Of a stretch of 41,049 nucleotides of DNA, positions 3,069 to 4,932 are shown one piece after another. The stretch covers positions 1 to 41,049 of the forward strand of contig JAIEPM010000020.1 in the NCBI GenBank assembly GCA_019748395.1, read 5' to 3'. The stretch's first letter is position 1, and every line of letters begins with the position of its first letter. The translations under genes and the position numbers were made by a program. A model generated the notes under the pieces. It was not told the DNA's origin. It was given only the letters and a program-made list of their open reading frames with translations, and did no database searches. The DNA is from Candidatus Obscuribacterales bacterium (GTDB taxonomy: Bacteria > Cyanobacteriota > Vampirovibrionia > Obscuribacterales > Obscuribacteraceae).

Positions 3069-4166
3069 CTAACGATTGGCTTTTATCTCCGGAAAGGGAT
3101 AAGTTCCGTCCAGAACTGTTTTCAATCCAAGGTAGGGATCTTCAATATCTGCATGCAATACGTATTTATAAAGCCATCCGGCAAGTTTCGCCGGTGATTC
3201 TTCTTTGCTGCTTGAGCCTGCCTTTGCAAAATAATTGTGAATCTTCAAGCGCATTTCGCTTTCGTTCAGTCTCACGTCATCTAGAAGATGCTGCCAGCTA
3301 GCCAGGTCTCCGGTAGGCAGTGCTTTAATTTTATAGGCGGATTTCTCTTTAAGTGGCTCCAGCCAGCGTTTGTCGTGGTCACCGTATTTGGTGACAAATT
3401 CGATCTCTCCATCGCCAGTCTTATTTGCCGCAATAAATCGCGCCGGTGTTTTCCCTGCTCTAAGGCGTGATTCCTGCAGCTTGTGGTATTTTTCAAGCTC
3501 AAAGTTTTTCTTTTCGTTTCCTAATTTGGAAAAATACTTGCTTGCCAGGCATAGCTGTTTCAGCCGATCTTTGTATGCTTGCGGTTCATATAAACCCGGC
3601 AAAATATCAATGATTCTTCCGTCGGAAAAGCAAACATAAGTAGCTATATTTCCGTTCAACGTGCGTTTGATGACATTGCCCTGACCCAGATCAATTGAAA
3701 CAAGAGGCACTTTGCGAACTGACTGCCAGCAGGCTTCGAAGTTTTCATTTATAAAGTCTGCAATTTCGGTATTTGAGAACAGCACGGTTCTCGCCATTCT
3801 GGCGTTAGTTCAACAGAACTCCTCATCCAGATTACCCATGAGCTGGAATACAAGTACAGGCTTTTTCGATTTTGATGCCAAGGCGCATGCTGCCTCAAAA
3901 TTCGGTCGCCAGGAAATAAGTCCGGCTTTTATTGTTTTAGAGTCAGGGAAAGCGGATGAGTCTTGATACTTAGCATTTTTTTGCTCCGCTTCTTTAGCCT
4001 CGATGCTTCCGCTGAATGAACCTGAAATCAGCTTTTTCAGAGGGGTTTCTATGGCCATTTTCGAGCCGGGAAATCCGCTGCGCCAGCGATTAGTGTTTTC
4101 TTGAGCCGGAGCGCTGCTTCCCGGCAGCATTGCCAAACAAAGTAGTGCTGCAACCCTTATTCTCAC
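3069..4166 (-). CDS. Thioredoxin-like exported protein, candidate selenoprotein read through an in-frame TGA at 3810-3812
   Basis: ORFs 3810..4166 and 3069..3797 are in the same frame and joined as ...KKPVLVFQLMGNLDEEFC-TGA-TNARMARTVLFSNTEIADFINENFEACW.... N-terminal signal peptide (MRIRVAALLCLAMLPGSSAPAQ). The thioredoxin-fold beta-CxxC-alpha context is broken only by the TGA. A bSECIS-like hairpin follows it. The second ORF has no well-spaced Shine-Dalgarno of its own. Confidence 0.7.
3775..3792 (-). promoter_or_regulatory. Candidate bacterial SECIS hairpin
   Basis: - strand RNA after the UGA: ACUAACGCCAGAAUGGC, then GAGAAC-CGUGCU-GUUCUC. Perfect 6-bp stem, 6-nt loop with G at position 2, and 23 nt from the UGA to the loop. 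Confidence 0.6.
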
Positions 4167-4197
4167 TGCTTGTTCTCCTTTATCCAGTATTTGCTAA

Positions 4198-4362: not shown

Positions 4363-4932
4363 ATGCCTTCGCGTTTCAACTGGGAGACGCTTTCTTCCGA
4401 ACAAATTGCCGATTGTCGCGTTTTTTCCGTAAATCGTAATCTTGCAGCTCCCGGCGGCAGTGAGGAAAGAGCCCACGATTTTTACGTTTTGCACCCGAAT
4501 CACTGGGTGAATGTAATCCCGATTACTGAAAACAACGAAGTTGTGTTGATTGAGCAGTTCAGACATGGCACCGGACAGCTAACTCTGGAAATTCCGGGCG
4601 GCATGGTTGATGATGATGATCCATCGCCAAAAGATGCAGCTGCGCGAGAGCTTCTTGAAGAAACAGGCTATCAGGGTTCGCAGCTTATTCATCTGGGACG
4701 AAATCATCCTAATCCGGCTTTGCAAAGCAACTATTGCGATACTTTCCTGGCCAGGGGTGTAAAAAGAATCCTTGAGCCTCGCTTTGATCGAAATGAATAT
4801 ATAGAAATACGTCTAACGCCTATCGAACAGATTCCAGTGTTGATTCAGTCAGGAAGAATTACTCACGCCCTTGTAATTGTCGCTTTCTATTATTTGAACC
4901 TTTACGAAAGTACGTTGAAATCAAGCGTCTAG
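4363..4932 (+). CDS. NUDIX hydrolase, ADP-ribose pyrophosphatase-like
   Basis: Nudix box GGMVDDDDPSPKDAAARELLEETGYQ, with upstream VNVIPITENNEVVLIEQFRHG typical of ADP-ribose pyrophosphatases. Confidence 0.92.
   Translation: MPSRFNWETLSSEQIADCRVFSVNRNLAAPGGSEERAHDFYVLHPNHWVNVIPITENNEVVLIEQFRHGTGQLTLEIPGGMVDDDDPSPKDAAARELLEETGYQGSQLIHLGRNHPNPALQSNYCDTFLARGVKRILEPRFDRNEYIEIRLTPIEQIPVLIQSGRITHALVIVAFYYLNLYESTLKSSV

Follow-up and report, generated by a model that had tools for sequence, protein, structure and literature searches.

Proteins of the Thioredox_DsbH type carry a CxxC motif as redox pair. The human AGR2/AGR3 proteins are monothiol members of the thioredoxin fold, i.e., they use a single attacking Cys. 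Among known selenoproteins, the VPGUxxT types 1 and 2 (NF041382, NF041383) are nearest to the protein described here; they are thioredoxin-like as well and appear as hypothetical protein OS_HP5 in a 2026 review (PMC13188914). For the accompanying RNA signal, the bSECIS model expects a stem of 4-16 bp, a loop of 3-9 nt with a G in loop positions 1-2, a UGA-to-loop distance of 16-37 nt and a free energy no higher than -7.5 kcal/mol (PMC13188914). With regard to the phyla concerned, a 2006 survey recorded no Sec trait in Cyanobacteria (PMC1794560), a later proteome count lists a single Sec protein in the cyanobacterial phylum, from a melainabacterium (PMC9529120), and selenoproteins are reported for planctomycetes (PMC4807772).

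Here, we analysed a stretch of 41,049 nt (the window), i.e., contig C674 in an Obscuribacterales assembly of 6.47 Mb. On its reverse strand, the ORFs 3810..4166 and 3069..3797 share a common frame and are separated by a single TGA (3812-3810), after which ACT AAC GCC AGA leads to the ATG (3797) of the second ORF. Re-reading the sequence confirmed this arrangement, from which a preliminary description had derived a read-through product of 366 aa; the single frame stands, the length has to be corrected to 365 residues plus stop. The putative selenoprotein gene spans 3069..4166 (-), from GTG 4166 via the UGA at residue 119 to TAG 3071-3069, and residues 18-363 of its product have a homologue in a related genome (G002), where the open frame likewise contains one TGA. 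A Shine-Dalgarno sequence AAGGAG (4175..4180, -) can be read directly 8 nt 5' of the GTG start. Residues 1 to about 22, VRIRVAALLCLAMLPGSSAPAQ (4101..4166, -), look by eye like a signal peptide, and the N-termini of other members resemble this region; these signal sequences suggest that the protein is exported.

We assign a probability of about 0.94 to the reading that this gene encodes one exported selenoprotein with thioredoxin fold and monoselenol redox role, in which UGA 119 is read as Sec. Computationally, the locus presents one conserved frame, a UGA that is kept or exchanged for a Cys codon, a conserved hairpin, a predicted thioredoxin fold and, in the source genome, the complete Sec machinery.

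With regard to conservation, comparing the read-through protein with 60 relatives gave matches in 17 genomes, nearly always with one TGA inside the match. In 50 genomes from the organism's family, the A1 profile found 104 matches, 97 of which contain exactly one TGA. Among the seven matches without TGA, one member of the distant family B (L036) shows Cys exactly at the Sec column, the TGA of L108 lies just beyond the matched segment, L034 is without its N-terminal half and G013:C8 matches the C-terminal part of the profile only. The remaining three were rejected as Cys homologues, since L106 and L107 are thioredoxin-like proteins with a CxxC motif and L105 is a paralogue that has diverged. In a collection of 84,980 genomes, the single-protein query had no match; the alignment query A1 found 27 loci, from Obscuribacterales and Planctomycetota (Pirellulales, Gemmatales and others), and residue 119 is encoded by TGA in 27/27. 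This uniformity is not a bias of the search, since its pattern 1 requires Cys codons at the site and so favours Cys, and pattern 2 (RT[LM][NHQ]GNIA) sits elsewhere. Finally, the profile gave 31 matches in 29 of 392 Planctomycetota genomes, 20 with TGA and 11 without. All 11 uninterrupted homologues (L120-L130) carry Cys in the Sec column, within the motif SCANSR[FY]F. Homologues with Cys or U at the TGA position, by which the Sec proposal was to be judged, are thus both at hand.

These searches also bear on the idea of a pseudogene, in which the TGA would stem from a nonsense mutation or a sequencing error. In its favour, standard gene callers would give two short ORFs, and decayed copies do occur occasionally, i.e., the above-mentioned L034 and L073, which has an extra in-frame TAA four codons ahead of the UGA. 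However, about a hundred sequences from two phyla share this TGA at the identical residue, and the downstream half is conserved through to its end. Since TGA and stem recur in dozens of homologues, a sequencing error or strain-specific nonsense mutation is excluded, and the conservation across independent genomes refutes the pseudogene reading, to which we give virtually no chance. Equally negligible is the probability of two separate genes, one for a short exported protein that terminates at the UGA and the other, downstream, for a protein translated from ATG 3797. Both ORFs are mechanically present and the ATG lies only four codons past the TGA, yet the break would fall within one predicted thioredoxin domain, where it would part the first strand from the helix of the active site, and the Cys homologues run uninterrupted across this point. 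Furthermore, the downstream ORF has no signal sequence, as had been noted before, and its ATG is not conserved, because at position +5 relative to the Sec, where the window protein has Met, 34/36 sequences of family A, the family close to the window protein, have Leu, Ile or Phe.

The proposed SECIS element (3775..3792, -) starts 17 nt after the UGA and consists of the stem GAGAAC/GUUCUC with loop CGUGCU. It fits the bSECIS geometry with its 6-nt loop, 6 bp, G at loop position 2 and a UGA-to-loop distance of 23 nt. A 48-nt segment containing the hairpin folds with -11.3 kcal/mol (z = -2.5 vs. dinucleotide shuffles); the stem-loop alone reaches -5.4 to -6.9 kcal/mol, such that the threshold of -7.5 is attained only by the longer 48-nt fold. 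For 55 sequences of families A and B, 97.9% of the cells of the six base pairs are standard and three of these pairs show changes on both sides, and none of 500 shuffles equals either the pairing percentage or the covariation score. Sliding the stem by -2 columns gives a covariation of 0.260 vs. 0.249 for the true register, but leaves only 65% of the cells paired. Extending the set by 14 UGA sequences to 69, 403/414 cells pair (about 97.4%) and 62/69 stems are complete, compared to a maximum of 46 in 2000 block shuffles of the 3' halves. The stem occurs in several variants, namely GAGAGC/GCTCTC (family B and the planctomycete L064 and L065), GAGGAG/CTTCTC (L063) and GCGTAC/GTACGC (L131, L133, L134), and the loop starts with CGTG in 65/69 sequences.

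Codon usage within family A points in the same direction. Synonymous codons are nearly frozen for Ala (GCG, 34/36), Thr (ACC, 30/30) and Val (GTG, 36/36), and the Arg at +7 uses AGA/AGG in 35/36 sequences vs. only 9/34 for the Arg at +4 (Fisher p = 2e-10). In the Cys homologues, which serve as negative control, only 53% of the stem cells are paired and 10/11 use CGC for this Arg. That is, the conserved-stem signal tracks the UGA rather than the amino acids, because both stem and codon decay where Cys replaces Sec. A synonymous-codon folding-energy test yields a modest signal (mean z of -1.3 for family A and -0.6 for family B), and the SECIS proposal, which had been put forward from the window alone, is therefore borne out by covariation and codon conservation and not by energy. 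Since several protein changes (T127A, L129S, F130L) go along with stem changes, the motif ARTVLFS / LRAVSLS may in part reflect an RNA constraint.

A search of the source genome recovered all four components of Sec biosynthesis and decoding that the preliminary description had named, i.e., selA (522 bits, cut-off 268), selB (341 bits, cut-off 242), selD (364 bits, cut-off 125) and tRNA-Sec (70.8 bits, cut-off 47), the latter also reported by ARAGORN as tRNA-SeC with anticodon TCA. The tRNA-Sec locus (L038, G000:C593:3886-3980) lies near a divergently oriented rpoB-like gene, named by eye. In the organism's family, counting genomes with a completeness of at least 80%, UGA homologues are present in 20/24 selA-positive vs. 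0/6 selA-negative ones (p = 3.5e-4), and 17/19 planctomycete carriers have selA. No selA match was obtained for the two other planctomycete carriers (G081, G089) nor for three relatives of 65-70% completeness (G003, G022, G030); most carriers are metagenome-assembled genomes (MAGs), and these gaps may reflect MAG incompleteness. The Cys forms are not simply the result of Sec loss, because most of their genomes (8/11) carry selA.

UGA might be read otherwise, either by reassignment of the code to Trp or Gly or by unspecific read-through, and a reassigned code would likewise produce an in-frame TGA within a conserved protein. In the window, however, TGA terminates 9/33 long ORFs and is therefore an ordinary stop in a code that is not reassigned. 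Against this reading stand as well the dedicated tRNA-Sec(UCA) with SelA/B/D in the genome, the conserved SECIS 3' of the UGA, and Cys, not Trp or Gly, as substitute residue at the site. We rate it as very unlikely, if a shade less so than the pseudogene and two-gene readings. Judged from these sequence features, the UGA codon of the window gene is very probably read as selenocysteine.

To the encoded protein, an AlphaFold2 model based on alignment A3 (34 sequences; mean pLDDT 74, mostly above 80 for residues 80-240 and 290-350) assigns a predicted thioredoxin-like domain at about residues 80-215 (3522..3929, -), within which pLDDT mostly exceeds 83. Here, strand 104-109 is followed by helix 120-129, which is capped by the directly preceding Sec119 (3810..3812, -). 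The model thus agrees with the earlier placement of the TGA where a thioredoxin fold has its redox Cys, i.e., after a strand and at the start of a helix. Best Foldseek hits are the DsbD-like domain 3f9u, Thioredox_DsbH 7tkv, DsbH 2ju5, AGR2/AGR3 and DsbD-gamma; TM-scores are modest, which is partly due to the large share of the query that does not belong to the thioredoxin domain. A PDB sequence search with A3 returned chance-level matches only. Ungapped extension of the profile alignment to the CxxC protein L107 places the Sec on the first Cys of WCGFC; in it, F69 of L107 pairs with F130 and C58 lies 11 residues earlier. A conserved C-terminal module (about residues 289-360, ending in LYKYVLHADIEDPYLGL; 3087..3302, -) is modelled as helices and shows D297, N301, R306, H310, D343, P344 and G347 conserved in A3. 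In the linkers, we observed the motif SKxxIExPLKxxL, once in the window protein (residues 35-45; 4032-4064, -) and seven times in L070 (residues 207-392), with 15 matches in 34 family A sequences vs. 0.09 expected from shuffles.

The active-site stretch of the window protein reads EEFCUTNA and had been described as a Cys-Sec active site. The Sec part of this claim holds, the Sec alone being invariant; Cys118 is replaceable. It is present in 30/36 family A sequences, which is what a vicinal Cys118-Sec119 selenenylsulfide as functional pair, comparable to mammalian thioredoxin reductase, would lead one to expect. But residue 118 is Thr in the other 6/36 and in 21/21 family B sequences, and Ser precedes the Cys in the 11 planctomycete Cys homologues, such that Cys118 and Sec119 do not form a defining pair and we regard the selenenylsulfide as improbable. 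The resolving position is occupied by Ala in family A (+3 Ala in 36/36; UTNA in the window) and by Gly or Ala in family B, and A3 contains no other invariant Cys. Given the lack of a resolving Cys and of any other invariant one, the most likely chemistry appears to be one in which a lone selenol catalyses and an external thiol resolves, at somewhat better than even odds.

For the selenoprotein reading, the following course of events, including actual Sec insertion, export, redox activity and substrate, is what we infer. The ribosome would start at GTG 4166, codon 119 (UGA) together with the hairpin 17 nt downstream would be decoded by SelB and tRNA-Sec as Sec, and translation would run on to residue 365. 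The product would have Sec in place of the attacking (N-terminal) Cys of CxxC and no Cys at the resolving position. Most likely, it would be a monoselenol oxidoreductase of the cell envelope, whose Sec may attack a disulfide, sulfenate or peroxide and be resolved by an external thiol or partner protein. Upstream of the gene, the window encodes a divergent NUDIX-type hydrolase (4363-4932, +; named by eye), which is not kept beside the homologues. Within the short flanks available, no other window gene recurs next to homologues either, so that no operon partner can be named.

The homologues fall into family A, whose members in A1 are 36-48% identical to the window protein (FCUTNARLARTVLFS), and the distant family B from Obscuribacterales (GATUSAGNSLRAVSLS). 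Family B is homologous (hhalign probability 98%, E 1.4e-13) and shares the Sec site and the SECIS, but has only about 25% identity, Thr before Sec and a different C-terminal region. The window's genome itself contains a second thioredoxin-fold selenoprotein candidate, the family B member L104 (G000:C534:4529-5059; GKTUSAGNSLRAVSLS) with the same SECIS. Family genes are markedly multiplied in the Obscuribacterales genomes G009 (8 matches), G013 and G030. In a tree based on 141 columns, families A and B are apart, and family A sequences from Obscuribacterales and planctomycetes are interleaved, for which transfer between the two phyla is a possible explanation. The Cys forms cluster (support 88/73, not starred) and sit within a clade with four UGA forms (support 100/99). 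That is, the Cys sequences L120-L130 group with L131-L134, UGA forms with the re-paired SECIS stem GCGTAC/GTACGC, and this group is a candidate for a conversion between Sec and Cys, in one direction or the other. The planctomycete Cys homologues share the thioredoxin domain of the window protein, with Cys at the Sec column, but have no UGA and a degraded SECIS stem. We see the chances as balanced for a wider picture, in which exported thioredoxin-fold enzymes with a single selenol would form an unrecognised superfamily. This would be the main Sec use of Obscuribacterales, with up to 8 copies in a genome, and would be common to them and Planctomycetota; the RNA hairpin would have constrained and partly shaped ARTVLFS after the active site.

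In Pfam and NCBIfam, no model reaches its cut-off with the family, and the 119-family table of prokaryotic selenoproteins (PMC13188914, 2026) contains no match; a planctomycete member is possible among the candidates of PMC4807772. The gene founds a large uncatalogued selenoprotein family, i.e., the family is new and its biology is of known kind. It adds to the two model libraries and the 2026 catalogue, which have no entry for it, and because of this absence such genes will have come out split or truncated in standard gene calling. Beyond that, it is a record of Sec being used in the cyanobacterial phylum, and its Sec and Cys branches with intact and decayed SECIS, respectively, provide a natural experiment on why Sec is retained.

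Compared to the known systems, the VPGUxxT selenoproteins show weak similarity (best E of about 3e-5 among 34 members; best scores of 19.1 and 18.5 bits vs. cut-offs of 350 and 275, respectively), and their models do not match the window protein alone up to E = 1. The VPGU motif is absent from the window protein, which has EEFCUTNA instead. Thioredox_DsbH / DUF255 (PF03190; 13.3 bits vs. a Pfam gathering score of 27) and Thioredoxin_7 (PF13899) match weakly at window residues 83-143. The predicted fold corresponds to the structures 3f9u, 7tkv and 2ju5 (DsbH), but CxxC is missing, with Sec at the place of the first Cys and Ala or Gly at the second, and the conserved C-terminal helical module is present in addition. 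The model also resembles the human AGR2/AGR3 type (Foldseek, 3ph9, 66 columns at 2.2 A); these, however, are eukaryotic ER proteins without close sequence kinship to the window protein.
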